From Odiellus spinosus (lineage: Eukaryota; Arthropoda; Arachnida; Opiliones; Phalangiidae): DNA of 64,000 nt. The stretch lies in NCBI GenBank assembly GCA_963920705.1, contig OY987225.1, forward strand, positions 3,484,501 through 3,548,500, written 5' to 3'. The notes under the pieces were generated by a model. The model saw only the letters and a list, made by a program, of their open reading frames with translations, did no database searches and was not told the origin of the DNA. Of the stretch, positions 16,401-63,267 are shown in pieces (the first letter of the stretch is position 1; each line of letters begins with the position of its first letter). Position numbers and translations under genes: made by a program.

Positions 16401-16803
16401 TGTTCTTTAGTTCAATTCGTCTGTTTATATTAGGAAATGAGTGCATTTGTTCAGTTATTGGTTGGAATTTGTTGCGTGAGTCACTTTTGTTTGAATTTGA
16501 TTCTATTATGGATTCACATCCTATCAGATTTTGACTAGGAACTGCTGTTTTCTTTAAATAGTTGCGAGTTTTAGTGTTGAGAAGTTCAGCTTTGAGCTTA
16601 TTACTTTCATTATAGTCATCGGCTGTGAAATGAACCGAACAGATTCTTTTATTTTTTAAATTTAAAACTGAACATGAAGATTTGAGGAACCAAAGATTTT
16701 GAAAATTTTCATCCTTAGGAAAACTATGATAAGATACGCCTTTACTTTTGGTTTTTCCGATTCCATTTTTACATCCTGGCACGCAGCAGCACATTTCAGG
16801 CAT
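13463..16803 (-). pseudogene. THAP P-element transposase, three lesions
   Basis: The start is the ATG at 16803, directly before the THAP domain (MPEMCCCVPGCKNG...ICSVHF, C2CH pattern). Then come a decapeptide-repeat linker (about 15990-16260), a coiled-coil (about 15666-15450) and the RNase H-like core with VITFDEVKI (first Asp, about 15160) and CVNDMGGGN (second Asp). The C-terminal LNQDCLENSFSQLRTRGG, typical of P/THAP9 transposases, lies near 14220-14280. Lesions: TAG at 15672-15670 in frame before MSKSLE, a frame change near 15035, and TGA for Trp near 14917. Otherwise 478 residues are open to the end at 13463. Inactive, but not very old. Confidence 0.85.
15990..16260. repeat. 30-bp coding minisatellite
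   Basis: Tandem 30-bp units encode NEVPSIIMMP on the minus strand. Four are near-identical between about 16040 and 16175, flanked by more diverged KEVP/NEVP units. It sits in the linker between the THAP and coiled-coil regions. Confidence 0.9.
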
Positions 16804-17446
16804 AATGTAGTTATAAGTTTTATCAGTCACCTTTGCATAAAAGAAAATAACAATAAGTTATTTCAGTTTTGATTTCGCTATCAGGTAAACATTCTCGAAA
16901 AGCTTTGATTTAACAGTCTAAATTAATCATAAGTACTTTATTACAATATTTATTTATATACTTATTTATTTATATATATTTATTTATATATATACTTATT
17001 TATTTAGGTAATTGATAGTACAAAAGCCTTGAAGGAAGGCTTGTGTGTACTGTACAATAGGTGTATGTTTATAATAATTTTATTGATTTTATGTTGTAAT
17101 ATTTACTTCGAACAAACCTAGACCTAAATAAATAAATAAATAAATATGATACAGGCATTATAAACTTACCAATGAATAATGCGCCAAAATAAACAAATTT
17201 TGGGCCTTGTCGGCGCCTTCTTCATATTCAGCTCTGCAGCCTACAGCTCGAGCCTCAAGAGGGAGGTTACTAGACAAAAACACACAAGAGAACGCGATTC
17301 TTGTTGCTGTCCCACGTATAACGTCATGAATCGGGAAATAAAGTCTATCTACCCCCCCACTTCGAAAAATCGGATATTGTCGTTTTTAAAGAAGCGGGAA
17401 TGCTCCAACCTTATAGTGTAGTCGTCTAGTAACCTTGGACGGAGTT

Positions 17447-18735: not shown

Positions 18736-19204
18736 TTCACCTCATTATAAAGCTAATAGGGAGTGTCAAATTATTTAAAAGCAAAAAACTTGATTAAAAT
18801 AAGAGTTTGTTAAATATTCGAAATGCGTAAACATTTATCCAAATGGAGTTTGCTAAGTATTAAAGTAGGTTAGGTTCGGTTGAAAGTCGACCGCGAAAAA
18901 ATTTAAATCCTAAAGTTGATCGCCCTTGCAAAAAGACTGGTGACAGGCGACTCCGGGAATTCTAAAGATCCTTTAAAAAAAGTCGTACGCGCGAGAGTGG
19001 ATTTGATAAGTATTTACAAAAGTCTATTACTTATTCCATAAAAGTAAACAACGAGCCATAGCTTAATACTATTCGAAAGATGTAAGCCCGACGTACAGGC
19101 AGATTCTGATTCGAAACACTCTAGTGGCCATAAGAAGAACTAGCGGAAAAGGATTGTGGGACGATTTTTGTATAGGGCGCTAAGTTTAGTATTCTCCGTG
19201 GCTC

Positions 19205-19212
19205 TATAAATA
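19205..19212 (+). promoter_or_regulatory. TATA box of the accessory gene
   Basis: TATAAATA lies 170 bp upstream of the ATG at 19382. A possible 5' UTR intron follows (GTAAGG near 19300 to TTTTAG near 19362). Confidence 0.5.
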
Positions 19213-19381
19213 CTTGGAGTTTTCTCTCGTCTGCTGCGGGCATGTCGTGCCGGGCTGCCGGCTGCCGCCGAGTTGTAAACAAAGTGGAAAAGCGGAAAGG
19301 TAAGGTCTTTCAGTTTGAATAATTGATTTATACCAGTAATTTTTGTGATAGTGAACATTTTAGAGTAAGTACTGGTCTGAC

Positions 19382-20958
19382 ATGGAAGAAAATAACGAAA
19401 AGATTCTAGTAAATATCATGCCAAATTCGCCTGAAACTTCTTTCGGAATGGTAAGCCTTGTCGAAAATCCTGAAACCCGCAGTACAGGAACTTCAAAAAT
19501 TTCTAAATATATTGAAAAAGCACTAAATGAAGAATTACACATTAAAGAATCTGAATCAAGATTAGAACTGCATAAAATACTGATTTGTGATAATAATGTG
19601 ATATTACATCTTGATAACCTTTTACAATCATTTCTATCTCTTAAAGAAAGTATTGACAATCAGATTAAAGCTAAAGATCCAAAAATGAAGAAAGGACCAA
19701 AGGACTCAATGGGTCAGTTAATATTTGAGTATTTTGATGAAGCTAAAATTTTGGAAGAAAATTTAATGTGTAAAATACGTGATCTCACGCTTGCGAGCTT
19801 TCCGGAAGATTTGGAACCGCTTTTAAGTTTTTACGCAAACAGTGTATTTGGTTACATGCTACACGATTCAATGGAAGTTTGGCGTGAAAGGAAAAAGGAA
19901 ACTACTAGATCTACAAACCTTAAGAGTAATGGAAATGCTAATGGTAGTTATGAAGCAGAGCCTGAAACTATTAGAGGGCTTTACACTCTCGGAGGAGGAA
20001 CACTAGGCGAGATATGGAAAAGAACCAAAAGAGCTAAAGAAAATAAAAATCTAACACTACCGCAGAGAATTGAAAATAGAAAATTGTACAAAGCTACATT
20101 TGAAATCAGAATGAGTAATGAAATGAAATTGATTCATCTTCCTCAGGTGCTAATAAACAGAGATTTAAAAGGAGGGATGTTTTTTGCCAGAAAATCGTTT
20201 TTACCATTCATTAGTAGAGTTTTAGCAGACACCAAAGAATTATTAAATATACAAAATCTTGCTAATCGAGGCAAAAACTTGTTATCCATAGCTGCTGGAG
20301 AAATGAAAAATAAATTAATTATCTACGAAGAAATTTTCAATAAAGCTGTGACAGTGGAATCTATTGTCTTGGAAGAACATGTTCAGCGTAAGTTTTTTAA
20401 CATATGGTTTTGGAAAATAGTACACGCCACAACCGAGGAGTTTGTTTCTTGTAACATGAAAGAAAAAACTAAAAAAGGGGGCCAAAATTTAAGGGACAAA
20501 TTATACTCATCAAAATCCAAGAAAAAGAAACAAACAGTATCCAAAAGTAAGACAAAAAACTCAAAAAAAAACATTAAATCTCAAACTAAAGTTGCAAAAG
20601 GAGGCCAAAATGAGAAATCTATGATTTCTGAATCAAAAGACGAAAGCACTAGTCACCCAATGTCAAAAATCAAAAAATTAACTAATCTGACGAAGCAATG
20701 CCAACATGTGGATCCCAAAATTTCTAAGAAAAAAAACCCAAATAGAGGAAAAAAAAATGCCAAAAAACTATTGCCAAGGAGAAGATAACAACGGAAGAAG
20801 AACAAGAAAAAATTATTGAAGTTCAAAAATTTAATCATACTAGTCAAGGGGGTAAAAAAAGAAAAGCAAACGAATCTCCAATAACCTACCTTTCAGCATT
20901 AAGAAGAAGCGAGAGAATCGAGAGAAATGTTAAAAGAAAATTAAATTATGACTTTTAA
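19382..20958 (+). CDS. Convergent accessory protein of the P-like element
   Basis: About 525 residues if one frame change is allowed for. It starts MEENNEKILVNIMPNS. A mid-region reads GLYTLGGGTLGEIWKR, then RDLKGGMFFARKSFLPFI, a KR-rich stretch, and in the next frame a tail ending RRSERIERNVKRKLNYDF. The original frame stops at 20788. The tail frame is open from before that, so a one-base indel in the A-runs at about 20730-20757 is likely. No catalytic motif recognised. Its place, orientation, length and basic C-terminal half match the second genes at 49113-51015 and 61270-62948. Distant homology, with a shared [RK]GG[LM] followed by an aromatic helix, is inferred rather than shown. Probably nuclear and DNA-binding (inference). 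Confidence 0.6.
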
Positions 20959-21261
20959 CGAGATTAAAGCTAGAGTTATTCAAATTTTCATTTAGGATTT
21001 GGTTCACGAGGAAAACGTGTCACTGCTGAACCTATGAAATAAAACAAATTTAAAAAAACTTTTTAAAAACTGAAATCATTGGTACTGCAATAAATCTGTG
21101 ATAATTTTCTTGGTTCTGTTCCTAAGTTTTGGAAGTATTGAAAGTTTCAAACCAAAAATAAAAGTTTTTTAATTTTATTTCGAAAGATACTCATTTATAA
21201 GGGTGACAAACACTATAAAATTATTAATCATCAATTAAGAGACATTTAAAAGTGACTCAAC

Positions 21262-24079
21262 TTAAATATTTGCTTCTCTTAAATGAAGGGAAACATTTCT
21301 GTAGTCTCTGTTATTTTTGTGATGGCCATGGATATTTCTACGAACCAATACAGATTTTCTGGCTGTTGAATAGTTAACACTCGATAATTTGCTCCCTGTT
21401 GCGTATTTAAATTGACTAAATAGACTTTCAACAGCACTGCCATTAACACGACTTGGCGAGATAAAATAAGCAGGATAGCGTGACAAAAAATCTCTACACA
21501 AATTTAAAAAACCAAATACTGTTATCCTTAAAAGGTCCCAAGTCTGCCAACTTAGAAAAACTTTCTGTGTTGGCTTTGATAATTCTATTTCGGGATCATC
21601 AGTAACCAAGTCATTGGCCCAAGATTCAAAATATTGGTAACCATCTTTTAATGATTTTATTATGTCACTTTCCATGCTGGTTATTTTATCTTTACAAAGT
21701 AAACCATTCTCAAAGATCTTGTTACAGGCTCTTAAATATCTATAACATTGTAACGTTCTCATTCGTTCTACTTCGGTGCCATCGCTACTGTTATAAAAGC
21801 CGAAAAGCTCTGACAAAATATTTTCCTGTTGAAAAATTTTTGAGGGTACAACATTCAAGCGCGTCCACGCATCCCTGATCAAGTAACTTTGTTCAAGATT
21901 CGGCTCGAAACGCAGCAAACCTTTTTTTTTCCTCTCTTCTTCTCTATCTCCCAAGTCAAGTACCTGTTTCCAACCAAAATGATATCCACAAAATTTGTAA
22001 TCTTTTGGACCACCATGCCGAGAAGAATATAGCGCGGCAATAAGACTTTTTAGTTCATGAGTAGGGCAAATAACCCAGTGAATTAAGCGTCCAGGGCAGA
22101 AAGGATTTTTAAACGAGGGGTCGACTGAAAAATCATACTCATTTCCATTTTTTTTCCAGCGAAAAGCTCCTTTATGTTGCAATGTAAGTTTGATAAGGGT
22201 TAGGTTTTCGCTCGCTCCGTCACATACAATTCCCAAAGTTAGGAATTGGTAGGCTTGAAACACACGGATAGTTTCGTAAAGGCAAGCGAGAACAAAACTG
22301 TGCATAACCGAGGAGCTTGAGGAAAAATAGGGTCCAATAACATCATACTCAGACGACATATCGCGCCATAAGAATTGTAGGATATACTGCGCTGGTGTTG
22401 CTGGTTTGCCGGTAGTGCCTTCGAAAATGTCATGCAAGTTTACAAATTCATCTTCAGTCATTGCTAGCCCAATAAATTGATGATTTTTAGAATTCCAAAT
22501 GATCTTATCGATCACTTTCACTTCGTCGAATATTAATACTCCTTCTCCGAGTGGGACTTTTTCACCTTTTCTACGTTTTTCCTCTTGAAAACTGGCATAT
22601 TTCAAAGATTCTTCTTTTAGATAGTTGTGATCTATTCCAGGTTTACTGTTCAGGTGCCTAGTTTTGTTCTTCAGTGAGCTAACACTTGGTAGTTGGAGTA
22701 TGTTGAAGGATTTCAAAGCTTCGTAAGCAGCAGGGCTTCTTGTATAAATGGATAAGGCAATACGATAAGATATGGAACTCCAGGAATTTTGTTTCCGTCC
22801 GGTGTTAAATTTTAATTGATCGGTTAAAAAGTTTCTGTAATCTTTGTTTTGCTGCGCAGCCGAATCTTTTTGCCAGTTTTTTCTTATGGCATCCTGAATA
22901 TCAGTATTTCCACCTACACTTATTATTGCGCTTTCTACTTCGTTAGGAAAGTTTTGATTCAAAATTTGCAGAATTTTAGACATTTCATTAGAATGGTGCT
23001 CATTTAAAGTTAAATTACGTTCTTCAAAAAGAACCTGCAACTTTTTATTCTTTTGTAAAAGGGTATTCCGGGCACTTGCGAGTTTACTTTGTCTAATGGC
23101 CTTTGTTGTTGGTGTCATATAAGAAGTTTTGTAATTGCTGCTTATGCGTGCCCTCTTAATTTTCGAAACTGGGGTTAGTTCTGCTTTTCTCTTTTGCGCG
23201 TATCCCAAGCATTTCATAAGCTTTAAGCAATTATTGCATCTTAGAATTCGGTCCAAGTTTGGCCTTCTGCTTTCAGAAAAGTAAAAAACTTGGCAGTCTT
23301 TAGATTGATAGCGTGGAAAAGGTTGGCTTAAAATGTTTAATTTAGGATTACAAACACCTTTGACCTTTTCTTCAGGAATTCCAGGGCAGTAAACGTACTT
23401 CGGATTTATCATCAAAGTTAAGAATTCTTCAAATTTTTCCTGGTCAAATGTTCCTTCACATATTAAATTAAAAGTCTCAACAGGTCTAAAAACCACGGCG
23501 AAAGTGCACTTTCCAGACTCCGTAAGTAAAAGCGACACTGGCTCAATATCTTCTTCAATCAGTCCTAATAGTGCTGGAACAAATGATATTGCGTACTCTC
23601 CCCGTAGAAGCTTTTTAATCTATATAATTAGTATAAATAAAGAACTTAAGTTTCCTTTCTGAATTACCAAAAATATTTCAACATACCTCAAATGAAATGG
23701 CATCATATTGCGGTTTATTTAAAGTCTGCAATATTTCCTTTGGGAATTTCTGTATATCTGGGTGGCTTAGTTTTTTATTGCGGATACAGTATTCAAAATC
23801 CGTTTGACAACCGAAATCAACTCTACTAGCCCTTGTTACTTTTAAATCAGTTTGTATTTGTTTATTAATTTTACCCTTGAATTCCGGCTTTAGGATATTA
23901 TTGCACTGAGTAGAAATAGAAACAACTTTTTTTTCTTGACCAAGGCTTACTTTAACTTTTTTAGGCGCGGCGTTTTTAATATCATCAGTTGGCTTATTTA
24001 TCGAAAATATTAAATTACAGTTCGTAGCCTTTTCCGTTCTATTCTGTATAAAATAATTGCACTGCGTATATTTATTCAT
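21262..24079 (-). CDS. P-superfamily transposase without THAP domain, intact
   Basis: Two exons, 24079-23687 and 23619-21262, separated by a 67-bp intron (GTATGT...TATAG) in phase 0, give about 916 residues. The start is MNKYTQCNYF. Exon 1 has no THAP C2CH. An N-terminal KYVYCPGIPEEKV motif is shared with the other P-like proteins here (CPG motif). The RNase H-like core has FDEVKV (Asp about 495) and VCDGASENL (Asp about 598). The C-terminal VESLFSQFKYATGSKL (Glu about 860) corresponds to the LNQDxxExxFxxxR box of P/THAP9 transposases. No stop or frame change was seen. It cuts and rejoins DNA at the element ends in the nucleus (family knowledge). Confidence 0.8.
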
Positions 24080-24920
24080 AGTTATAAATATTCATACCCT
24101 AAGGCTTCCGAGTTCCGAATTTTTACGTCGGACGGTCGGACTAAGGCAACAGCTGATATGGGCAAAGTATTAATCTATTGCCTGAACAGGGCTGAACAGA
24201 TGGAAATTTTTTCGGATTTATAGTTTTCATTCGTAAAATATTTATCCCACAACTCTCTGCGCGCATGGTATAGACAGACTCTCTCTGAGCTTGAGTGACG
24301 TCACCTATCGCCTACGTATAGGTTAGATGGTGACGTCGTTGATACACGTTGCAAATAGTATTACGCTATGGCTCGTTGTTTACTTTTATGGAATAAGTAA
24401 TAGACTTTTGGTATTTATTTAGATATTTTTTATCGGTGTGTTCTTAGGTTAGGCTAGGTTAGGTTAGGTTATCAGTCGAACTAGCTCGTCCCAGTTTGTT
24501 ACGACCAATGTTTACACGATAAACTGACTGCAATTTTTTTTCGGGATACGGTAATTATGTAACGGGAAGAATGTATCAACGGTAAATTTAGTCACGGTGA
24601 ACTTTTTACGATATAATATGCTCTACGGTCAATTGTATACTACGGTAAATTGACTACGATAAATTGTCCACGATAAATTTGTTACGACCAATGTTTACAC
24701 GATAAACTGTCCGTAAAGCGGCAACCCTAGCAGACGATGTTGGTCATCATAAATTATATAGTCAAAGCCAGAATGCACATAAGAAAAGATGATTTTCAAG
24801 AGCCAAATAGCCCACAAGATCAGAATTGCAAAGTGGTAAGAAATATACCCTTCACTTCGAGCATCCCATTTTTCGGGTCTGATTCTGTGGGTTGCCGGCC
24901 CTCTGCCTGGTCCTAAATCT

Positions 24921-25557: not shown

Positions 25558-25594
25558 ATAAAAACTTTTTGAAATAATTGTTATTCTTATTACG

Positions 25595-26449
25595 ATGGTG
25601 GGGAAACGAGTAGCTCAAAAATTGAGCCGAGTGTATTACGATCCCCAACACGCCGCTAGTCTAGGTTCCCCGAAAAAACTAGGAGAGGCGAACCCGAAAG
25701 TCTCGAAACAAGATGTGCAAGACTGGTTAGTAACGCAACCCGCCTATACGAAACATAGAAACAGACGTAAAAACTTCCCTAGGAATCAAATCTACGTCAC
25801 GCAGATGGATGAAGTATTCCAAGGAGATTTAATTGACCTACCTAAACTAGTTAAGCGGAATAATAAATATCGATACGTTTTAACGGTAATCGATTTGTTA
25901 TCGAGATACGCCTGGGCCCGACCGTTAAAAACCAAAAACGGGTCTGAAATGATTAGAGCCCTGGAATCCATTTTTAAACAACGGACCCCTTCGCGTTTTA
26001 ATACGGACGAAGGTAGCGAGTTTATTAATAAACCGGTTCAGGCGTACTTAAAGAGAAAAGGTATTCACTGGTACCCTAGCTACGGCACTTTGAAATGTAG
26101 TATGATCGAACGCTTTAATAGAACTTTAAAAAATCGAATATTTAGATTAATGACTAAAAATAACGATTCGAATTACGTGAAACATTTGCAAAAAGTGGTG
26201 GAAGGGTACAATAAAGCGAAACATTCGACGATTAAAATGGCGCCGAAGGATGTGAATATTGATAACGAACATTTAGTCTGGAAACGGTTATACATGAAAA
26301 AGAAAAAGAAAGTTAAGAAGCCCAAATTACGTCCGGGAGATCGAGTTCGAATTTCGGCGGATAAAGGCATTTTTGGGAAAGGATATACGGGTTACTGGAC
26401 GGACGAGATCTTCGTTATAAGGAAAGTCCTCTATCGCTTACGTCATTGA
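25595..26449 (+). pseudogene. Polinton/adintovirus-type integrase (fossil)
   Basis: About 284 residues of a retrovirus-like DDE integrase of the Polinton kind. The first Asp is in VFQGDLIDLPKL, the second in FNTDEGSEFIN and the Glu in SMIERFNRTLKNRI. An SH3-like tail (LRPGDRVRISADKGIFGKGY...WTDEIF) follows. The catalytic triad is present. The family's last tail residues are not in this frame (about one break). It inserts element DNA into the host chromosome in the family. The fossil is followed 57 bases later by the protease ORF. Confidence 0.8.
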
Positions 26450-26506
26450 GGATGGAACTGGTGAGGTTATAAGAGGTGCGTTCTACGAGCCCGAAGTTCA
26501 AAAAGT

Positions 26507-26986
26507 ATGAATACCGAAGAATTAACGTCTTTTCTACAATGCGATATCCGAACGCGACCCTTTTTTGTCGGTGTGTTTCCCCAAGATATCTTACCCGAGA
26601 AACCCGACTTTAAACCCTATTGTTTCGTGATTAATTCGGAACCTGCCTCCGAAAGCGGTCTACATTGGGTAGGCGTTTTTGTGGATCGAAACGATGTCGG
26701 CCATTTCTTTTGCTCTTTCGGAAAAGAACCGAGTTATTACGGATTGGATTTATCTAGATATACCACCAAGTGGAAATACAACGCTACGTCGTTACAGCCA
26801 AAAGCGTCGTTCACCTGTGGAGGTCACGTGATTTTTGTTTTAACCGGCTTATGCGCCGGTCTGTCTTTCAAAAATATCCTAAATGAAATGTATAACTTGA
26901 GAGATAAAACGTATAATGATATTATTATAATGTTAAATATGTGTATGCATTTAATGAATCACGAAAACGGTTCTTGTATCGAATAA
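26507..26986 (+). CDS. Adenovirus-type cysteine protease (C5 family, fossil)
   Basis: A 159-residue ORF starting MNTEELTSFLQCDIRTRPFF. Family hallmarks are the N-terminal FxGVFPQDxLP block, the catalytic His in SGLHWVGVFVD (about residue 52), and the catalytic Cys in SFTCGGHVIFVL (about residue 104). The ORF looks whole and has the length usual for Polinton proteases. In the family it processes virion proteins. Confidence 0.75.
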   Translation: MNTEELTSFLQCDIRTRPFFVGVFPQDILPEKPDFKPYCFVINSEPASESGLHWVGVFVDRNDVGHFFCSFGKEPSYYGLDLSRYTTKWKYNATSLQPKASFTCGGHVIFVLTGLCAGLSFKNILNEMYNLRDKTYNDIIIMLNMCMHLMNHENGSCIE

Positions 26987-43960: not shown

Positions 43961-46003
43961 TTAAGATAGGGGGTGGGACTCATCTTTTTCTTCTTAATTT
44001 GATTTTGACTAGGCCCTATTTTTAATATTTTTATATAATGCAGGGAATCGGTAAAAGGATAAATTTGACTTGTTTCTGTTTACCAAACCGTATTAAAATT
44101 AACGGAAGAGAAAAAATCCATTCGAAATTTCTAAAAAAAAAAACAAACAAACAGGAAACAGGTTTTTAAAGGATAAAAGAGGCTAAAGTGCGTATAAAAT
44201 ATAGGATAAAATAGGTGGTGAGAGTTTGCGTCAATTCCCGTAGATTCTAAAATAACTAAATTTTGTAACGCTATCTGTTAAATTTTGACAAAAGTAGTTT
44301 AATAGCGGAATACCACTATTCAGATTCTCTAAGCTTTTAACGATAGCCTTGAAGTTTGGCTGGAGAAAGAATTAACTTTTTTCTTCGTATTGCGTTACTT
44401 CGCGACGTTACGATTTAAACCGACTTTCAAATATATAATAACGATCTTAAGCAGGACTAGAACCTATCGTATTTATCCTGAAATTATCGTACGCGTTATA
44501 AGGCTAGAAAAAAATCTAACTATTTACCCATTTACATAGTAGGAGACTTCTGATTAGGAGTAGGGTCTGTTTCTCTGTCTACTGTGCTACGTCTAGGAGT
44601 GTTGCTGCGTACGATAGCTTGAGCTCGAATTATCCTACAAATACGAATAGTTATGACTGAGATCTAAAGCTGTAACGTTTCCAATTACTTACGAAGTACC
44701 AAGATGATTTCGAGGTTAACAGCGAGATCCAAAACCTTCGATCGTAGATATTCCCCACCCCAAATCCCAACCTAAAATTTACTTAATTTCTTCAATTGGA
44801 ATAAAAAGTCAAAAATTTAAGCTTTATATTACGTTATTCCTTCGTTTGATAAACCAAAAAGAATCGTTGCGGATTAGTTGAGAGAGTGCAGCGTGACTTT
44901 AACCCAAGATTCTAGACGTGGACTCATAAAAGATTAAGGTTATCGTGAAAAATATCAAAATTAAGGTAAAAACCCTAATAACTGCGTGATTCGACAGGTC
45001 AATTGAATAGCAGGCATTGTAGCAGACTCCTTTAGAGCAAGAAAAGGAAAATAAAGATAGGTTTGGAAATAACACGTGTCGATAGTGAATGTTTTTACTT
45101 TGTCCTACTGAATCCTATTATAAATACACGAAGTAAACTACAGTAACTGCCGTAGTTTTCGGTCTCTAATTCGGTACGCGATCCCTTGGAATTTATTTAA
45201 GCTTCGATATCTTCAAAATTTCCTAACGCGCGAAATTTAAATCTTTATAAAAACGTGTTTTGAGCTTTTAAAGTTCGTAAACGTAATAATCTTTTGAAAA
45301 GAAACGATAAAACGAGCAAAAAAACCTTGAGATTTGCTTCTTTATTATTGTCAGAGAGAATTTAGAAAGGTAGTGTAAGCCCCTGCCTTTGACTCTATTA
45401 AAAATAATGTAGGCTCTGCTCTTAGAGGTTTTGCTTAAATTATTTTGGGGCTTAGAGGTTTTGCTTTTAGGGGGAGGAGGGGGTAGAGAATAATACTCTA
45501 GGAAGTTCTACTCTTAGTCTTAATTTAATTAAAAACAATCATCTGCCGAAACTTTGTAAGTGATGAAAGATTCGTAACAACTAAAAAGGGTTTAACTATG
45601 TACAGTACAAAACCGTTTTTTAGAAAACTATAGCAATTTGTAAAAATTACAACAGATTTACTGTTATTTCTCTGAGTGTGTTAATTGTTTAACTGAACGA
45701 GGTTTTTATAGTAAGTCTTCTTCATCTCGGATAACCTCCAATCAAAGAAAATATACCCAAGGAATAGAAGGTCCCCCCTTGGTACAGGCATTACTGAAAA
45801 TCACGGGCGCCCCTCTATTTTCACCCCCATTTTATCATACACCTCTCTTCCGGTTGATTCTCATTGGCTGTCATTTTTGGAGCCAAAATAATTTCGCGGT
45901 CTGCTACTGCTGCTACGAGCAAGGCTTAGTATCTGGTATATCATTACGTTGTTCGAAAACTTCAAGCTTTTTTTAACTTCGTTAATTAAAAATAATCAAG
46001 GTA

Positions 46004-48934
46004 ATGGGCTTACGTTGTTCATATGGGTCCTGCAAATCGCGAATTAAGAATCTAAAATGTAAAGTGAAAGGGGCTGATGGAGTGTTTTTTATAAAATTCC
46101 CATCACCCAAAAACGATGTGAAAAAATGGAGAAATTGGATTTCAGCGTGTGGACGTGATGATTTAACTCTTGAAAAAATAAACAAAACAAGTTACATTTG
46201 TTCAAGACATTTCTACGGATTTCAAGGACCTACACCAGAACACCCAGATCCTATTCCTATTAATGCTATTACACCCCAAAGTGAAATATACAACCACAAC
46301 ACACCTAACTTTGAAGTAGTAAGTCAATTTCAGTTTTTAATTTTATAGCTTTGATTTAAATATTATTTTGTTGCAGGCATCTCAAACGCCCAAAATACTT
46401 AGAAGTGTTTGCCCACGACAACTATCCTATTCAAGCGCTTTCCTCGGAATTGAAGGAAACTCGGAACGCCCTGATCCTATTCGTATTAGTGCGACACCAC
46501 AGAACCAAATTTACAATAACAACACAACTGGCTTTGGATTAGTAAGTTAGTTTTATTTAATTTTATAGCTTTTATTTAAATATTATTTTGTTGCAGGCAA
46601 CTGAAACGCCCAAAGTACTAAAAAGTGTTTGCCCACGACAACTATCCTATTCGATTTTGCCATCTAAAGTAGACTTTAATAATCTGCGTGTACCAAAAGG
46701 ATGGGCTTTGGAGATAGATGAGGAATTTTTTACCTTCTTTAAGCTTCAAAAAAATTGTAAAGTCATTGAAGTAATGATATCAAGCGAGGTATCAGTGAAA
46801 TTTTTGGATAAAAACATTGATCCAGAAAAGATTTTTCCAAATTTCGTGATAAAATCAGCCGATGACATTACCATTTTCTTGAGTAAATTAGATGAATTTT
46901 CAGTATGCCCGGGCAATGTTGAAAGTGACTTAGTAGCAGTGTTCAAGCAATCCCGAAGAGCATCTGCAGGAAAGGGTCATTTGTACATGAAGCTAGATTC
47001 TGTATATAGCAAAAGTTGTTTAGGATTGTTCAAGAAATCCTCTAACACTCCCCGTTGTCAGAAGTGCTCACTATACCGTAGTACCTTAAGAGGTATGAAA
47101 GCCCAAAGCTTGAAGCGTTTAAAAAAACCAAAACCTAGTTCCATTAAATCAGAAAAAGCCAAACGAGTTGTTTTAAATTCCAAAGAGATGTTGTCAAAAC
47201 TTAAGAGAACAGGAATGCCATTGAGAAAATGATACAGATATGTAAGAGACAACTAAATACAGTATTTTTGGATCAACAAATAAAAGCTATGAATACGTCA
47301 AAATATGGCATTAAGTGGGACCCCCAATTTCTTAAATGGTGCTGCTATCTGAAAAATAAATCCAAGTCGACTTACGAAGCTCTTAGAAAATCATGCTGCA
47401 TGCATCTCCCTACTACTAGAACATTGTATAAACACATGCACACTACTACGAACTCATCAGGATTCCACGGTGAAGTTTTCAAACAAATGTCTGACGAAAC
47501 AGGAGTTTCAAATCTCCCGGAACACCAAAAGTATTTCATGATTATGCTCGATGAAATGAAAGTCAAAGAAAACTTAGTTTGCCACAAAGACACCGGGCTT
47601 TTAACTGGGTTTACAAACTTAACAAAAGAGCATAATGAATTAGATGAGATTGAGCGAGAAATTACAGGAAAACATACTCCACCATTGGCCACTCAAGTCT
47701 TGCAGCTTATGCTACGAGGTATTACATCAGATATTCGCATTCCATTTGCCCATTTCCCAAGTAAAACAGCCAGTGGTGCCGTCCTTTATAGTATAATATG
47801 GGAAGCTATAAGGCGATGTGAAAATGCTGGATTTCGGATTTTAGGAGTCGTAGCAGATGGAGCAACAAGCAACAGGAAGTTTTTCCGTATGTGCTTTCCG
47901 TCGGATACTGGTGACAGTGGAATTCTATACTACACAGATAACCTTTATGCTACTGATGAAGAGCGACAGTTATTCTTTATATCGGATGCCCCTCATTTAA
48001 TTAAAACTTGTAGAAACTGCTTTAGTAACAGCTGCCAGAATTCCAAATGTAGAAAATTATGGAAAAATGGTGAAGAAATATTATGGAACGTGATCATGAG
48101 GTTATATTACCGGAAAGTCAGAGCCAAGGGAGAATTCAAACATCTTCCCAAGTTAACATACTCTCACGTTTTCCTCCAATCCTACTCAAGAATGCGTGTC
48201 TGTCTTGCAGTGCAAGTTTTGAGCGAATCAGTTGCATCGGCAATTGAAGTTTTATTTGCGAAAGATATGCATCGATATACCGAAACTGTCAAGTTCATTA
48301 GAACATTCAACAGGTTCTTTGATCTTTGCAACGTTAAAAATTTAAGTGAAGCTAATCGAACCCTCAACCAAGATAAAAAACCATACACTTCAATTGATGA
48401 TGAGAGATTAACGGTTGGTTTTTTTAAAGTCAACTTAGTTTCCCTATATTTCTTAATTAAATATAAGTTTTATTACAGTGGCTAGAAGGTGATTTTATTG
48501 CATATTTGGATGAATGGGAGAGAGATGTCCGAGAGAGACCAGGTGACTTTTCAAAGTCAGAGCGAGATAATATGATGCTGAGCCGAGAAACTATCGAAGG
48601 GCTGAAAATAACTGGTAAATTATAATGCATGCAGATTTGAACTATTTTCTGAAGTTGATATTGCAGATTTGAACTATTTTCTGAAATTGATATTTTAATT
48701 TCAGCCTATTCAACTGTAAAAATTGTACGTTTCCTTCTAAATAAAGGGGCGCCTTACGTTCTTACACAACATTTGAACCAAGACCTGTTAGAGCAAAGTT
48801 TTGGTCGTCATCGATCAGCATGCGGAAGGAACACCAATCCATCAGTTTGGTTATATGAAGCCAACATCGATAAACTCAAGTCTTTAAAAGGATTTATTCT
48901 AGAAGCTGTTGGAGGCAACACCAAAATAACATAA
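46004..48934 (+). pseudogene. THAP P-like transposase, one frame change
   Basis: Exons 46004-46318, 46377-46541, 46597-48413, 48479-48614 and 48705-48934 have consistent phases. The THAP domain (MGLRCSYGSCKSR...YICSRHF) starts at residue 1. The CPG motif (FSVCPGNVESDLVA) follows. The catalytic region has IMLDEMKVKENLV and VVADGATSNRKFF. The last exon carries LNQDLLEQSFGRHRSACG. Exon 2 is a tandem copy of neighbouring sequence (220-bp duplication). The only lesion seen is a frame change at about 47228: the upstream frame ends PLRK at 47232 and the next resumes at MIQICKRQL, overlapping by four bases. The partner gene lies convergently downstream. Confidence 0.85.
46320..46760. repeat. 220-bp tandem exon-intron duplication
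   Basis: Exon 2 (46377) and exon 3 (46597) start alike (TPK-[IV]-L-[RK]-SVCPRQLSYS), and the introns before them are nearly identical (TTATTTAAATATTATTTTGT then GCAG). The duplication keeps the frame. Confidence 0.9.
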
Positions 48935-49112
48935 ACAAATGTGGTTAAAATTTGATTTTAATATATAATTATATACAAAAAAATATTCTCATTTGAGAAA
49001 CAAAATTTGTACCCATTGTTGGCATTGTTATCACTAGAAAAATAAATCAATTCATTTTAGTCAACTATCACATTTTCATTTGTAAATTTAAAATCTTGGT
49101 TAGGCAATGGGA

Positions 49113-51015
49113 TTAATCAATGTTTTTAGTAATATCACAATGGCTTGTAGTTGTACGTAATGGCAGGATTATGGTATTTTCAATACCCGAAGGGGTTGTG
49201 TTTCTCATATTGTTTGTTTGAATGCTCAAAACTTTAGTTTTCTTCTTTGGAGACCTGTTCTCTCCTGGGGTAGATAATGGTAATTTTTTGTTTTGCTTGG
49301 TTTTTAGTTTAGTAGTTTTCTTAGGATAATTCTCTTTCTCTAGAGGACTAGGTTTCTTCGGTTGTATCTTTTCATCACTAGAACTTGGTTTATAAAATTG
49401 TAAATACAGATCCTTGTCCGGATCATTGTCGAGGAAAGAAAAATCTTCATGCTTTTCATTCTCTTGATGACTAGGTTGTTTTCGTTCTCTCATTTTATGA
49501 CTAGAACTTGGTTTGCAAAACTGTAAATACAGATCCTTGTCCGGATCATTGTCGAGGAAAGAAAAATCTTCAGGCTTTTCATTCTCTAGATGACAAGGTT
49601 TCTTTCGTTCTCTCTTTTTAGGACTAGAATTTTCTTCGCAAAACTGTAAATACAGATCTTTTTCCGGATCATTGTTGAGGAAAGAAAAATCTTTTTTTTT
49701 CGCAGAACAATTGGAGCATGAGTCACATTTTGTAGCCTTTGCCGCTGCCGTAGAGTTTTTTTGGCTTCATTCTTTTCCTTTAAATCCTTCCGGAGTGCTT
49801 TATTGATTTTTAAAGCTTCTTTGCTATCCAACTGATATTGTTCTAGAATATCGTTTACAAGGCACTTTCCTCTTGTGTTTAAGAAAACATCCAAAATTTT
49901 CTTTAATACTTTTTCATTGATATCATTTGGATATATTTTAGACCATTTGTCCAGGATTTCTTTATTATCCAAAATTGCATTCTTTGCAATTACTTTTAGT
50001 TTTAGACCCCTGGTTTCTCGCGTAGATTCCACATAAAACTTGTCAGATATTTCTTTAACCTTTTTCATTATATCAAAAAAATCATCCGAGACGTTTGTCA
50101 ATCTTCCCCTCGTAAGCTTTGATAGCCACTGTTCCGATGGATCTACGGCTAGGGATTCCACATCTTCTTTATTGCTTATAATGGCCTTTTTGATGTTTGG
50201 CAGATCTTGTTTGGTCTTTTTTGATACTGAAAAAGTAGCGAAACCACTCACAAACCTCAAAACATCTTCATTTGATTCTTTTTTTTGTTCATCAAACAAC
50301 TCTGGCTTAGCTGGCATTTTATTCTTCTTTTTTTCATATTGTAAAAGAACTTTCTCGGTGCCAATTTTGAAAACAACCATTAACAACGAAAAGAACCTCT
50401 CATATATACTGCTCAAAATGGATCTCTGATGCTGAATGTCAATTTCCTTTAAAATACGCAGGTGTTTTTCTAGAAGAACTCTTACTCCATCATTTTTCCT
50501 CTCCTTGCGACAAATAGAATTAACCTCAGTTAAATAATTTTCTCTTGTACTTTGGGAATTCAAGTTGTGGGATATCAAGAGTTGATTCAAAATTTGCGCA
50601 AACTCATCGATTATTGTTGAATTGCTGTTGAATTCTTCGAGAAACTGTTTTATTTTATTTCCAATCATCTCATCAGTGTACTCATTAGGAAGAGAATTCT
50701 TCATTTCTTTTAAAGTTTTATTTAAAACAGCTTTCGTCTCTTCATAATTATCTGAAATTAGATACCACAAATTTTATTATGCATAGTTGAGTCTCTACTA
50801 CTCTCTAGTCTCTCTAATCTAATATTGCCATAAATGGCAAGGCTTAACGAGAAAGTGTTTATATTCTTAATTTCTGCAGCCAACAAGACAAATTGTCTGT
50901 TAAATTAAATGATTATAATCACAATCGTTAATACTTGCCATTAAAAAAAAATACGGTTGTTTTATAACTTACCTTTATTTAAATAAATACTAGAAACCAC
51001 GTTAATACCAGCCAT
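49113..51015 (-). pseudogene. Convergent partner gene of the P-like element
   Basis: Exon 1 51015-50973 (MAGINVVSSIYLNK) and exon 2 from 50751, joined through a GTAAG...TTTCAG intron. Shared with the 529-residue protein at 61270-62948: VLRFVSGFA near 50260, RGRLTNVSDDFFDIM near 50095, LKKILDVFLNTRGKCLVNDI near 49870, then basic sequence. The frame changes in an A-run near 49690. In the following frame the C terminus carries the motif SFLxxDPxKDLYLQF three times (about 49690-49640, 49565-49514, 49445-49392; period about 125 bp) and ends CDITKNID at 49113. Function unknown. Probable nuclear accessory factor (inference). Confidence 0.65.
49392..49692. repeat. 125-bp tandem repeat encoding the DLYLQF motif
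   Basis: AAATACAGATCCTTGTCCGG and AGGAAAGAAAAATCTT recur at about 49402, 49526 and 49649, three units in tandem in the C-terminal part of the partner gene. Confidence 0.9.
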
Positions 51016-51377
51016 TTCGTCCGCTATCGTGCAGCCGATGCCTCTGCTAAAGTCTGCTTACCTCTGATTGGCTCAAAGATTTGACCGGAAATGATAGAGC
51101 GGCTCGCTCGTGATATTTTAAACCGCTCCTTCTATTCCTTGGGTATATTTTCTCTGCTCCAATCCCTTGTTCTTATCGTGGAATTCGGAGTGTTCGATTT
51201 TGTCCCAGATTTTCTTGACTTGTTTTGGTGGAAATAAAGGGCTAGTGAAGTAATATCAAAAACCCTAAAAGTCACGAAGGTTAGGATTATAATATTTCGT
51301 ATAGGCTTATTTTTAGTAAATAAAGGGAACGTGAAATAGGTTCAAAACATTTAATGACAAAATAAAATACTTAAAAA

Positions 51378-56933: not shown

Positions 56934-57435
56934 ATAGAGCCATAGACAATAAACAGAAGGACTAGAAGGCGTAGAGTCCGTAGTGCATGCATCTATGCCG
57001 CGTTTTTGCGGGGGGCCGTACTCCAAACTTCTGAAACTCACTTCCGTTTTCACAGAGAACGACTGGTATGTCGTCTGCTCGTTTATCACGCGAGAAGCCG
57101 AAAAGGCATATGACGAGGCTTATGGTAAATGATTTTTAAGTTTAAATGAGATTAAGTCAGAGAAAATAACTGTTTTGATTCAATGTTATAAGTAAGTGAA
57201 AACATTAATCATTAACTTATCATTGATATGTAAAATTAATTTCATGTTTAATTTTTACAGTTACCATTTACTATTGTATACTGATACTAAAGGATAAACT
57301 AACTTAATATTAGTTGGTAATTGCGCTTATTTTAATCTTATTTCTTTAAAGTAATAATTAAAAATATTTTGCTTTATTATTTAATGATTTTTGTTTAGTT
57401 AAACTTATATTTATCATCTTATATGATATTAGGAA

Positions 57436-60400
57436 ATGGTTTATTCGCCTAAGAGGTGTGTGTATGGATCGTGCACATCGAGGCGCAATGAAACAACTAA
57501 AATTGTTCCTGGAGCCCCTGGAGTATTTTTCATAAAATTTCCGTCACCAATCACTCAAAGCGATAAGTGTTCACGCTGGGTAAATGCTTGTGGTCACACT
57601 GATTTTTCCAAAAATGACGTGAAAAGATCAACGTACATTTGTTCCAGACATTTTGAAGGATTTTCTGGACCAACACCATTAAATCCTGACCCGATTCAAA
57701 ATACCTCACCTCCAAATTTACCAGTTAGTATAGCGTAATTTGATTTAATTTGTCTATTTACAAAGATGTTTTTTTCAAGATGGAAGTGTTATGTTTTTAG
57801 GTTGCAACCAACCAGGAGCGCGTGAATAATTCAAGCATATTGGGAACTCGGAAGCGAAAATTGCAGAAATCCGATAACGAATGTGTAAATTTACTTCCTT
57901 TCCAAAGTATCAATGTAGACTTTGTAAATCAATGTTGTTATTACTAATTTAGACGAATACTCCAAGATTAAGTTTGAAGAAGGATATTAGCCCCAAAGAA
58001 TTATCATTCACATTCAGTGAGTGTGAACAGCGTTCATCACCTATTCAAGACTTCTGTGGATTTTCCTCTACCCCTAAAAGGATTAAGGGAGGAACTGAAG
58101 CTATTAAGTTTACAAGAAGCACTGAACTAGCAACTATTGCTATGGATTTGAAAACTTTAAGCCCCCCACCTAGCTGGTCTATGGAATTATTTGAAAATAG
58201 TGCAGTGTTTTCCAAATTCAAGAACAATTTTAAATTTATGGAATGTGTCTTTGAGGAAGACATAAGAAAAGAAGTTACCGCCAGTCTTAAAATCCAGAAT
58301 AAACCGATAAATTTTGAGATGGGAGAAAATGAACCATTAATATTGAAAAGTAAAAGTGATATTTATGAGGTATTGAAAAATGCAAATCAATTCACCTGTT
58401 GTCCTGGTAACCAAGACCCTGATTTCATAATTCTCTACAAAGGCCAAAGCGAAAGTCACCAAAAAAGACAACTTCGAAGTTATTATTGTGGTAAACTGAA
58501 TGGCATATTTAGTACAAACTGTGAAGGTTTCATTAAAACGCCGCAAAATAGATGTTTTCAATGCTCAAAATACCGCTCAAGTTTACGAAAACTTCGACAC
58601 CGAAATAATTTGAAAATGACTGACAAGCGGGAGAAAGGTAAATCATACACGAAGGTCATAAAAAAGAACAAAAAAAGCTTAGTTCAAACGGAAAGCAGTA
58701 AGAATGAAGTCAAAAGCATGATGTTACTACTGAAAGAAAGACTTAAAGATGAACCGACCGGTTCGCTTATGTCAACATTTTTAAGACAGCAGCTTCAAGC
58801 CATGCATAGATCAAAATATGGCATGCGTTGGGATCCGCTATTTGTTAAATGGTGTATTTATATGAAAAATATGTCAAAATCTTCTTATGAAGCTCTCAGG
58901 AAATCAAAATTACTTGTACTCCCCACATCAAGAACCCTTTACAATCATAATCACTCTATAAACAGTAAATCTGGCTTCACAACAGAAATGTTTGAAGAAA
59001 TGGCCAAAGAATGTGAGCTTGAAAAAGTTCCAGAACATCAAAAGTATTTTGTTTTATCACTTGATGAAATGAGTATTAAGGAGGACTTAATATTAAACAG
59101 GACTACGGGCCTTGTAACAGGATTAGTAGATGTAAACGAGAACCATAATTTCCTAGACGACTTGGCACATAAAGTTACCAACTCCGAGAAACCACCTTTA
59201 GCCACTCATATTCTACAATTAATGATCAGGGGAGTTACCAGCAAAATAAAGATTGCGTTTGCTCATTTTCCTACCAAAGGTGCTTCTGCTGCAGAATTAA
59301 ACAGCATTATTTGGGAAGCAATCCGAAGACTTGAAACAAGTGGCTTTCGAATTATAGCTGTTGTAGGGGATGGAGCTTCCACTAATCGTAAGTTTTTCCA
59401 TTTATCTCAATCTTACGAAGCGAAAGAAGCGCAAGAAATCCCATACAAGACGCAAAACCTTTTTGCTATGGATGAAGAACGACCCATTTTCTTCATATCT
59501 GATGCGCCACATTTAATCAAAACGGTACGCAATGGATTCGCAAACAGTGGTACTAATTCTAAAAACACTCGTACACTTTGGAAAAATGGAGAAGCAATAA
59601 CATGGAAAGTTATTCTAAGATTGTATTACCTAAAACTGAGATCACAAGGGCAATTTAAACACCTAAACATATTAACATATTCCCACGTGTATTTGAACAG
59701 TTACTCAAAAATGAAAGTAAACCTTGCAGCTCAGATTTTAAGTGAAACTGTTGCTAATGCTATCGAACACCTCTTATCAAAGAAGACTAATACTTACAAG
59801 GAAACCATTGAATTTATCCGAGTTTTCAATAAGTTCTTTGATCTTTGTAATGTAAAAAACAGAGTTGAAGGGATACACCAACGAAATAAGAACCATCTAC
59901 CCTACACCAATGTAGACGACGAACGTTTAAAAGTAATGATTATCACTAGGGGTGTGCGAGTACTCGTTTAGGTTGAGTACTCGATCGAGTCTCGAGCCGA
60001 GTACTCGGCTCGAGACTCGATAAGAAAATTTTTAGATACTCGAAAAAATTCGAGTCCGTAAAATCCATTTTTTAAGACTCGATAAGGACTCGAAGCCAAA
60101 ATCTAGCTTATCTAGTATTTATCGAGTCCATTCGGACATATTCTGTAACTAATTAACTAAATACTAACACTTCCATTGAGCCATATAGAGTACTGGAAGC
60201 TATATTTCCTATTGTTATTGCTCCATGGCATTGTTATTGTCAATGTGAGCACTAAAACTTATATAACCATTCAAAAAGATACAATGAGAGTAAAAGCCAT
60301 AGAGAAGGAAAAATGACTAATGACGCCATAAGTCATATCTTTCTCCCTGCCTTTTGTTTATTTGTTATTAGTCTTATTTATTTTATTTAAACCTAAAAAT

Positions 60401-61172
60401 ACTAGGAAATTAAGCTAGGTAAAAATTTTCCTTAGGCTCGTTAAATACTCGATAACAAATTTTTGGACTCGACTACTACTCGAAAGCCAAAATTTTCCTA
60501 ATTTTAATACTCGAAGACTCGAGTAAGAATCGAGGACTCGGCTCGAGACTCGATAAAAAAAAAATTTAATACTCGGACTCGGCTCGAAACCCAAAAAAGA
60601 GGACTCGCACACCCCTAATTATCACCCTATTTTCTTATCGGCTTGATTTCATTACTCATTTATTTATATTAGTGGTTGGAGTGTGACTTCATCAAATACT
60701 TGGATGATTGGGAAAACCAAGTTTTAAATAGGCCTGGCAAGTTTACTAAAACCCAGAGAGATTCCATGCTCTTGAGCAAGCAAACAATCCAAGGACTGAA
60801 GATAACTGGTAATTTCAACTAATTTGAATAATTTCAACTACTGATTTATGAAATAAACGAATATTTTGTTTATATTTAGCTCTGTCAACTGTAGGAGTAG
60901 TTAAATTCATGTTGAGTAAAGGGGCTGAGTACGTACTCACACAGCATTTGAACCAGGATCCGTTAGAACAATATTTCGGAAGGCATCGGGCAGCTGGGGG
61001 CAGAAATACTAACCCAACGGCATGGCATTATGGTGCAAACAAAGATACAATTAAAACTTTAAAAGGAATTGTTTTAGATGCGGTAGGAGGTAATACTCAA
61101 GACCCCATGAAAGAAATTGTAAAAGATATTACCGGGATGGTTATTGACAATGTTGAAAAACTACAGTGTTGA
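57436..61172 (+). CDS. THAP P-like transposase, intact, five exons
   Basis: Exons 57436-57723, 57801-57884, 57953-59932, 60675 to about 60810 and 60880-61172, all in phase, give about 927 residues. The THAP C2CH domain is at residues 1-85 (KRCVYGSCTSRR...YICSRHFEGF). The CPG motif (FTCCPGNQDPDFII) is near 270. RNase H-like core: LSLDEMSIKEDLI (Asp about 494) and VVGDGASTNRKFF (Asp about 596). The C-terminal box LNQDPLEQYFGRHRAAGG (about 855) corresponds to the catalytic Asp/Glu region of P/THAP9 proteins. Substrate: the element's own ends (family knowledge). No lesion seen. Intron 3 carries a MITE, which should be spliced out. Confidence 0.85.
59947..60617. mobile_element. hAT-type MITE in transposase intron, 671 bp
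   Basis: Inverted ends TAGGGGTGTGCGAGT (15 of 15), perfect 8-bp duplication ATTATCAC (59939-59946 and 60618-60625). Rich in ACTCG/GAGTCTCGAG motifs, including a perfect 38-bp palindrome at 59984-60021. It lies 14 bases after the donor site of transposase intron 3. The 8-bp duplication and TAGGGGTG ends are typical of hAT. Confidence 0.92.
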
Positions 61173-61269
61173 TGTCCGTTAATATTTCAATTGTATAATA
61201 TAATATTTCTTATTAAATAGAATTTTGCATTTTATTTGTCAGATAATATCACAATCATATATATCACTG

Positions 61270-62948
61270 TTACAGAAATTGTAAATACAAGTCTGCGTCT
61301 GGATCGTCAGCCAAAAAACTTAAGTCATTGTTTTTCTTAGCCTCTTCAATTGCAGGGGTTTCAATGTTGTTGTACTTAGATATTTTCCTCTCAGACTCTT
61401 TGGGATGTTGTAAATTTGTACTATTTTTAAGGCTTTTTATTGCACAACTACTTCTAATGAGACTAGATTTATTTTCTATTTTTGACTTTTGTTTAGCTGG
61501 TGATTTAATTATGAAGTCAAATTTGGGTGGTTCCAAAAATGTCAGATCTTGTTGAAACTTAGTGGAGTTGTTTTCCTTCGCTTGTGTAATTTGACGCTTT
61601 GGGATTTTTCTAGCTGGTGATTGAGTCCAAACCTCTTGTATTTTGGTGTCGCTACTTTTCACTCCAGTCAGTTTTGACATACTTTGTTTTTTCTTTTTAG
61701 GCGTTTTTATTGTCTTTCCCAAACTTGTGACTTTGGTTTCTCCTTTTTCAAGTTCCTCCTTTTCCTTAAGTTTTCTCCTTAATGCTTTTTTGGCTCGTAT
61801 ACTTGATTTTGTTATGTGTTGAAACAGTTCTGTTATGTCTCTTGTCAAACATTTTCCTCTAGTATTGAGAAAAGTATCAAGTATTTTGTTTAACCATTTC
61901 TCTGAATCATCTCCCTTGTGAAGATTAGCCCATTCTTTAGAAATTTGCGCATCCGCTAGAGCTTCTTTGGTAGCGTTCTCTTTTAATTTTTCATTTCTAA
62001 GCAATTCATAATTAACACAGTAATGCTTATCAGATAGTTGTTTAATTTTGAGCACCATCTCGTAAAATTCATCAGAAATGTTTATTAATCCACCACGCGA
62101 TATCTTTTGTATCCAAGATTCTGTCTCATCCATAGTTAGTTTATCTTCTTTGGTTATTCTATCAACTGTTGATTTGGGACATTTTTTTCTAATCAAACTT
62201 CTCACTACAAACCCACCAACGTATCGTAGCACATCATTATTAACTCTTGATTGCGCAGGAAATACAGCAACCTCATTTACATCTATATCAGTATCAACTT
62301 TTTTGTTTTTTAATTCTTCCAATTTCTCCAATACATTTTTTATTCCAATTTGGAACATGGCCATCAATCGACCAAAAAAGATTTGTAGAATAGTTTGGAT
62401 TACCGTTTTCCTGACAGGAATTGGTAGATCCAAGAAATTGCCCGAGGATGCAAAGAGTGCTGATATTTTGTCATTTTTCCTTTCAGCAAACAATAATTTG
62501 TTTACAGCATTGCAATAATCCACCTGAGATGGATATTTTTCAAGATTTGAAAAGGTTACTACTTCTAAAAGGTGATCGGTAACATTCTTTCTTAACATTA
62601 CATTGTGTGGTGCCTTTACATCCACCAGAAACTCATTGACCATAGCTCGATTTATAATAAAGTCGTTACTGCCATCGCTCATTTTGTCAAGTGTGAAAAG
62701 AATGGTTTTTTCTACGATTTCTAATTAACAAAGACACATTTTAAAAAAAATTATAACAATCAAAATATTGGACAAAGGCTTAGTAGCGTAATAATATTAC
62801 TATGTTTACCTTTGATTTCTGTTTCCTTGAATAAGGCCAGACCATCGCGATCGCTCGAAAAAATACGATTCGAATTTATATTTAAAATAAAGCATCCTAA
62901 TTTATTTGAATTATTATCTGTAGTTGTTAAGTTTAAGTTTAAAGCCAT
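61270..62948 (-). CDS. Convergent partner protein of the P-like element, intact
   Basis: Two exons, 62948-62810 (MALNLNLTTTDNNSNKLG...) and 62720-61270, with a GTAAAC...TTAG intron, give 529 residues with no lesion. Conserved with 49113-51015: DVLRYVGGFVVRSLIRK, RGGLINISDEFYEMVLKIKQ, WLNKILDTFLNTRGKC, then a long Lys/Ser-rich stretch with TPKKKKQ (possible nuclear signal). The extreme C terminus is LSFLADDPDADLYLQFL. No catalytic motif or known domain recognised. Conservation of position, orientation and sequence across elements implies a role in transposition or its control (inference). Confidence 0.75.
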
Positions 62949-63267
62949 TTAAATTCATTCCGTTGACTCTGTATGCTGTCTGCTGCTATGCTTCGAAAAT
63001 AAAATAAATTTTAAGCCAATCATCATCATTCAGCGGAGCGGAAGTCAGCATCAGAAGTTTGGTCCCCGAAAATCGCGGCATGGAAAATTCGCACCTTCTA
63101 GTCCTTCTGTTTATTGTCTATGATAGAGCCCATGTTAAAAATAGGAAACATCAAAACTTCGACAAAGACCAACAGTATACTTGTGCTATATGGTCTTTGT
63201 AATGGACTAGTAACTACTTTTGACGTCACACTTAAAAGTAGTTTATCCGGGAACACTAAAGAAAAAG

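Follow-up and report, generated by a model that had tools for sequence, protein, structure and literature searches.

We report that a stretch of 64,000 nucleotides from the genome of Odiellus spinosus (Opiliones, Phalangiidae; NCBI GenBank assembly GCA_963920705.1, contig OY987225.1, positions 3,484,501 to 3,548,500 of the forward strand; hereafter the window, which is part of contig C1) carries at positions 56941-63122 an intact P-superfamily transposon of 6.2 kb, with two convergent genes between its terminal inverted repeats (TIRs). Our preferred interpretation, to which we assign a probability of roughly two in three, is that this is an autonomous cut-and-paste element whose transposase is split over the two genes, open reading frame 1 (ORF1) and ORF2, with the C-terminal domain (CTD) of the enzyme being supplied in trans by ORF2. 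Both genes are predicted models, built from open frames and splice signals, and the genome in which relatives of the element were sought comprises 443 Mb.

The element is flanked by a perfect 7-bp target-site duplication (TSD), ATAGAGC, at 56934-56940 and 63123-63129, and it is bounded by 29-bp TIRs that are 100% complementary to each other (left, 56941-56969, + strand; right, 63094-63122, - strand). Inside these lie subterminal inverted repeats of 24 nt that are 88% alike (left, 57023-57046, + strand; right, 63039-63062, - strand) and unequally spaced, lying 82 bp and 60 bp from the left and the right end of the element, respectively. The terminal 20-mer has two sites in the window, both exact in a search that allowed up to three mismatches, and two matches were seen in none of 100 shuffled sequences. 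TIRs together with a TSD of 7 or 8 bp characterize the P superfamily, and the 29-bp TIRs are here associated with 7-bp TSDs at all five insertion sites identified in the genome, rather than with the 8 bp of canonical P elements. The stop codons of ORF1 and ORF2 are approximately 100 bp apart, and between them two poly(A)-signal-like hexamers face each other at a distance of about 20 bp (ATTAAA, + strand, 61212; AATAAA, - strand, 61231; together 61212-61236). The original prediction of a complete two-gene P-like element, with TIRs, a 7-bp TSD and both genes open in consistent phases, agrees with this anatomy.

ORF1 runs on the + strand in five exons separated by four introns, all GT-AG and consistent in phase, and codes for 926 amino acids plus a stop; the exon structure and phases of the predicted five-exon THAP transposase could be confirmed, while its length had been given as about 927 residues. 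Exon 1 (57436-57723, + strand) encodes the N-terminal THAP domain expected of the P superfamily (PF05485, E 3.8e-11; 44 bits against a cut-off of 23.9), and exon 2 (57801-57884, + strand; GT-AG, phase 0) is followed by exon 3 (57953-59932, + strand), which contains the N-terminal half of the RNase H domain and the GTP-binding insertion domain (PF21787, 2.1e-25; PF21788, 1.1e-21). Exon 4 (60673-60808, + strand) derives from the gene model, and exon 5 (60880-61172, + strand) carries the C-terminal RNase H motif DPLEQYFG and then the stop (PF21789, 2.4e-7). PF21787, PF21788 and PF21789 each score above their cut-offs, and ORF1 matches the structure 6p5a with an E value of 9.7e-21. The catalytic residues D, D and E are present, with DEM, VGD and QDPLEQ of ORF1 aligning with D230, D303 and E531 of 6p5a, the first of these alignments (DEM with D230) lying in a sub-threshold segment and the residue numbering following PMC7776569. 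Intron 3 is long (740 nt) because a hAT-like miniature inverted-repeat transposable element (MITE) of 671 bp, with TIRs and the 8-bp TSD ATTATCAC (59939-59946 and 60618-60625), sits inside it at 59947-60617. This stretch was aligned in all six copies compared (with a 36-bp deletion in copy L013), and the MITE therefore predates the spread of these copies. The stop codon of ORF1 falls 67 residues past the third catalytic residue, and no THAP9_C or PF12596 match was obtained at E values up to 1 when ORF1 was scanned in three pieces; the CTD that canonical P elements carry within their transposase is thus not recognizable in ORF1.

ORF2 lies on the - strand and encodes 529 amino acids in two exons (62948-62810 and 62720-61270), as had been predicted. 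Exon 1 (62810-62948) comprises 46 codons and one base, and exon 2 (61270-62720) contains the N-terminal part, a conserved core with the motifs DVLRYVGGF, SRGGLINISD and FLNTRGKCL, a basic linker and the C-terminal motif SFLADDPDADLYLQFL. The same order is seen in the alignment of ORF2 proteins, in which an N-terminal part is followed by the core (LRYVxGF, RGGL, FLNTRGK), the basic linker and, at the C terminus, the peptide SFLxxDPDxDLYLQF, of which the ORF2 of a second family (family B) has three copies and that of L045 two. The original prediction had pointed out that a second, convergent gene within the same TIRs departs from the single-gene picture of canonical P elements; all seven full-length copies indeed carry ORF2 between their TIRs, and its frame is open in six of them. 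Comparisons with Pfam gave no convincing match and sequence comparisons with PDB none of significance (best E 0.058); the ORF2 profile likewise had no PDB match up to E 10, where the chain of the fly enzyme has 569 residues and may not cover the PF12596/CTD region. No relatives were found among viral contigs searched with ORF2, the canonical transposase and ORF1.

The pairing of the two genes extends well beyond this element. When each protein was used to search the genome, ORF2 had 65 matches and the transposase 70, with identities of 31-100% for the transposase. A first merge of two ORF2 queries with Pfam PF21787 (150 of 386 candidates scored) resulted in 78 ORF2 loci and 151 transposase loci, and within 8 kb of these 78 a transposase was located such that 49 ORF2s were downstream on the opposite strand, three upstream on the opposite strand and none on the same strand, with 26 having none; about 0.4 of the 78 would be expected near a transposase by chance. 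With four ORF2 queries pooled, a P-type transposase is found within 8 kb of 60 among 88 ORF2-like loci; 56 of these 60 are placed downstream of it on the opposite strand, that is, convergently, with 32 distinct gap lengths. Many of the ORF2 loci are duplicates of each other, and the 60 paired loci are accordingly not independent events. Conversely, among the 65 transposase loci that are relatives of ORF1, 47 have an ORF2 partner. When three other families were scanned for TIRs with a 7- or 8-bp TSD, each gave exactly one solution, in which a TSD of 7 bp flanks a unit containing both genes: family B (45743-51156 of the window, and L057; CTCCAAT in both, a duplication), L058 (CTTCTTG) and L059 (GTTAAAC). 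For L056, where the sequence was too short, the scan gave no solution. In family B of the window the ORF2 peptides are three SFLxxDPDKDLYLQF-type units in tandem, and the frames of both its ORF1 and its ORF2 are broken up.

It is in the light of this arrangement that an origin of ORF2 as a captured host gene, a nested element or a chance open reading frame has to be considered, and we regard such an origin as barely credible. Beyond the missing known domain nothing speaks for it, while the same convergent position in divergent families, an open frame in six of seven copies and a ratio of non-synonymous to synonymous substitutions (dN/dS) well below 1 between families, where measurable, all oppose it. 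In seven measurable between-family comparisons the dN/dS of ORF2 is 0.07-0.25, at synonymous divergences (dS) of 1.2-2.7 that are close to saturation, and three close ORF2 pairs have ratios of 0.60, 0.69 and 0.74; in five further ORF2 comparisons and in all five ORF1 comparisons synonymous sites were saturated and no ratio was obtained. Where measurable, these ratios show the predicted ORF2 to be under purifying selection between families. The original prediction had allowed that the convergent gene could be an unrelated insertion with its own termini; its constant relative position in divergent families speaks otherwise, and as judged from the compared loci ORF2 is a built-in part of the element and not a stray insertion. 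The two-gene layout is common to many divergent families in this genome, and the pair is old.

As to the nature of ORF2, its core is reminiscent of the CTD of ordinary P transposases. In the window, positions 13466-16857 (- strand) encode an ordinary single-gene THAP transposase with a fused CTD (PF12596 exactly at the cut-off), for which the scan used gave no TIR/TSD pair. A second canonical transposase with a CTD is present at L061 (THAP9_C, E 0.0042, below its cut-off). The ORF2 profile was aligned using hhalign with 65 ORFs of at least 100 aa from the window and L061, after removal of three ORF2 pieces, and the two CTD-bearing canonical ORFs ranked first and second with scores of 29.3 and 25.3, followed by 18.8 for the next. 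Both matches fall within the CTDs and overlap in ORF2 profile columns, and the segment of L061 that was aligned (11-76) overlaps its Pfam THAP9_C segment (17-79). Among 365 shuffled or reversed decoys none and one, respectively, outscored the two CTD matches, and the same numbers were obtained for 150 shuffles of each CTD itself (0/150 and 1/150). The two canonical CTDs, aligned directly, do not find each other (score 13.4), and by this measure the ORF2 profile is therefore closer to each CTD than the CTDs are to one another. With HMMER the ORF2 profile found no significant canonical CTD, L061 being, for the extended profile, the top one among the matches listed below the inclusion line (E 0.38). 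A transposase lies within 5 kb of nine of the 87 Pfam CTD hits in the genome, and in nine of nine cases the CTD is downstream on the same strand, unlike the ORF2s, which are on the opposite strand; this genome-wide layout of CTDs and ORF2s supports the reading of ORF2 as a separately encoded CTD.

An unlikely alternative, to our mind the strongest of the remaining ones, is that this P lineage gained ORF2 as an unrelated helper, with a role such as binding DNA, nuclear import or the pairing of ends, and that the CTD was simply lost. Such helpers have parallels in the Myb-like protein of PIF/Harbinger and in MURB of MuDR, and the lack of a convincing Pfam or PDB match, the basic linker with a C-terminal peptide that is repeated in some families, as well as the approximately 200 residues that precede the CTD-like core, would suit an adaptor protein. 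It is less easily reconciled with the two best profile matches among the 65 ORFs both being canonical CTDs in one register, and with ORF1 having no match to the CTD module.

A number of observations weigh against the split transposase. With respect to layout, 28 of the 88 ORF2-like loci have no transposase within 8 kb, three are upstream on the opposite strand (with an identical gap, and thus one family) and one, a 62-residue piece 7.5 kb away, is downstream on the same strand. With respect to homology, the two CTD matches have low hhalign probabilities (13.9% and 4.0%), and shuffling of a lysine-rich protein can yield a score as high as 28.8, so that controls matched in composition are called for at hhalign scores of this size. 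The models THAP9_C and Tnp_P_element_C had no match in 11 ORF2 members at E values up to 1, nor in distant members or a consensus up to 10, and the 87 Pfam CTD hits and the ORF2 loci nowhere overlap. Finally, AlphaFold modelling of two ORF2 cores of the window gave a pLDDT of 39.6 and the model was unusable. Because the absolute probabilities are low and the Pfam CTD models miss ORF2, we rate the homology between the ORF2 core and the CTD as suggestive, not proven, on the sequence comparisons made.

Two further observations concern the distribution of CTD hits. A set of 48 similar hits among the 68 THAP9_C hits in the genome consists mostly of 190-aa ORFs that match THAP9_C from about 67 to 175, none of them with a listed transposase within 5 kb; this is perhaps a repeat carrying only a part of the CTD. 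Moreover, a same-strand PF12596 hit lies at a distance of 1.3-1.4 kb from the ORF2-like hits at C1:5540330-5542225 and C1:6930604-6932497.

If the transposase is split, ORF1 would bring the THAP domain, RNase H and the GTP-binding insertion, and stop where an ordinary P transposase continues into the CTD, while ORF2 would be a diverged version of the CTD, extended at its N terminus and ending in a basic tail and a conserved C-terminal peptide. In the fly enzyme the CTD is all-helical with a basic end and is located, on a flexible linker, between the RNase H and GTP-binding domains of two different subunits (PMC7776569); a domain so placed could plausibly be supplied in trans. The same text describes that the fly CTD contacts transposon and target DNA and that the 66-kDa product, which is without the C-terminal part, is a repressor (PMC7776569). 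ORF2 would accordingly join the complex of ORF1 and the transposon ends in trans and do the work of the fly CTD in contacting transposon and target DNA, ORF1 would be the equivalent of the 66-kDa form and ORF2 that of the missing domain. Such a division of labour predicts that the two proteins interact physically and that movement requires co-expression of both genes, and the conserved C-terminal peptide of ORF2 may serve as a docking motif in place of the covalent link.

The comparison with the fly also raises the improbable alternative that ORF2 is a regulator, such as a repressor competing for transposase or binding sites in the manner of the fly 66-kDa and KP proteins. In the fly, portions of the P-element gene also serve to make repressors (PMC7776569), and a THAP hit is present 0.3-1 kb 5' of ORF2, on the same strand, at three of 79 ORF2 loci, such that some ORF2 proteins may bind DNA. 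Yet the fly 66-kDa repressor lacks the CTD and is not made of it, and for a pure repressor one would hardly expect constraint to persist in so many families as the CTD disappeared from the transposase. The three loci (L060 2812-4215, minus strand; C2:30878840-30880287; C17:732519-734263) are perhaps elements with two THAP proteins; at L060 one phase-compatible THAP-ORF2 splice exists among nine candidates, and ORF1 there is likewise preceded by a THAP hit. For the split transposase itself, we envisage an origin by inverted duplication of the whole transposase gene followed by complementary loss, and a THAP domain on the ORF2 side would fit such an origin, at few loci.

The original prediction held that the element may be active, for which near-identical copies together with expression of both genes would be support, and the genome bears this out for its recent movement. 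The 20-base end has 23 exact occurrences genome-wide, and seven of 17 places compared are full-length copies with both genes between the same TIRs, at five insertion sites with the TSDs ATAGAGC, GTACCTA, CAAGAAT, ATAATAC and ATAAAGG. The copies of the window, C1:7.18 Mb and C45 share one set of flanks, and represent a segmental duplication or a haplotype copy, and the remaining four were inserted elsewhere. Among the six copies in which both ends are exact, mutual identities are 99.58-99.85%, and the seventh, L023, is 99.40% identical to the window copy. The frame and stop of ORF1 are kept in four of the seven; one has lost the stop codon and two are frameshifted, and both genes are open in the window copy and its two duplicates. 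At the remaining 10 places a single exact end is present; L015 and L024 (one insertion, duplicated) are elements of 226-227 bp with a 7-bp TSD, and L017 and L020 have a second end with two mismatches at 214 and 248 bp and no matching TSD. Paralogous empty sites were sought for two of the five insertions and found for both: the joined flanks of the window insertion match one element-free site on C13 (99%) and two on C274 (96%), and those of L023 match such sites on C202 and C87 (98%), among 40 listed places. Because near-identical copies are present at five sites with different 7-bp TSDs, together with paralogous empty sites, the element is, from these traces, one that moved recently by precise insertion. 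We also noted that the element and a family-B copy recur together, at C1:3.53-3.55 Mb, C1:7.17-7.19 Mb and C45:1.39-1.42 Mb, with a similar spacing (approximately 11-12 kb between the transposase matches), as a result of segmental duplication or unmerged haplotypes.

Among known systems, the Drosophila P element (87-kDa transposase) shares the THAP domain, the split RNase H with a GTP-binding insertion and the aligned D/D/E, as well as TIRs of similar length (29 bp here, 31 bp in the fly) and unequally spaced subterminal inverted repeats (PMC7776569). It differs in having one gene, to which the C-terminal part is added by IVS3 splicing, and an 8-bp TSD (same source), whereas here there are two convergent genes, an ORF1 without a CTD match, a 7-bp TSD and a length of 6.2 kb. 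Galileo, with which 1360 of the P superfamily is grouped among the closest systems, likewise encodes a THAP transposase, the domains of which extend to residue 884, and its TSDs are mostly of 7 bp, but its TIRs are long, and the accessible part of PMC4168063 describes one transposase and mentions no second gene. THAP9 and the zebrafish Pdre2 share a P-type transposase, TIRs and subterminal repeats, but have an 8-bp TSD and one THAP9 transposase gene, with no second gene mentioned in the available portions of PMC10983969 and PMC7776569. In the literature searched, with most subscription papers and Repbase outside that search, we found no two-gene P-superfamily element. Two-gene DNA transposons are known from MuDR, in which the genes are convergent, and from PIF/Harbinger, which belong to other transposase superfamilies, and to our knowledge their second proteins are not pieces of the transposase. 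For PIF and Pong-like elements, two ORFs are described in PMC5543537. What is already known is, accordingly, that 7-bp TSDs occur in the P superfamily (Galileo; PMC4168063) and that two-gene DNA transposons exist in other superfamilies.

Other elements are present in the window. Positions 19017-24410 hold a third P-like element, with TIRs identical over the 34 bases shown and the 7-bp TSD GTATTTA, in which a 785-aa transposase ORF on the - strand (PF21787, 6.4e-7) and a 474-aa ORF on the + strand are convergent. The 474-aa ORF has no Pfam match and, by eye, a YTLGGG...KGGMF pattern that resembles the ORF2 core; no homology of this lysine-rich protein to ORF2 was detected, 53 of 200 shuffles scoring as well. 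Should the layout of the third element be real, the convergent arrangement would be wider still. In addition, ORFs between approximately 900 and 33000 resemble Polinton/Maverick genes by eye, including an integrase (25562-26449), a protease (26465-26986) and pieces of DNA polymerase B.

The P element is the textbook one-gene transposon, the activity of which is set by splicing the C-terminal part in or out. If our interpretation is correct, these families would represent a natural split transposase, in which the CTD is apparently a separate gene on the opposite strand, and the role of this domain in target contact, end pairing or regulation could be tested by adding or omitting one protein. 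The annotation of P-like elements would also change, as the second gene might otherwise be taken for an uncharacterized protein of the host. More tentatively, and at somewhat less than even odds, the loci would belong to a large and old radiation of the P superfamily with a two-subunit transposase that originated by inverted duplication and complementary loss, a THAP exon being retained on both genes in some families, and in which tissue control may be exerted through co-expression of two genes and not through splicing.

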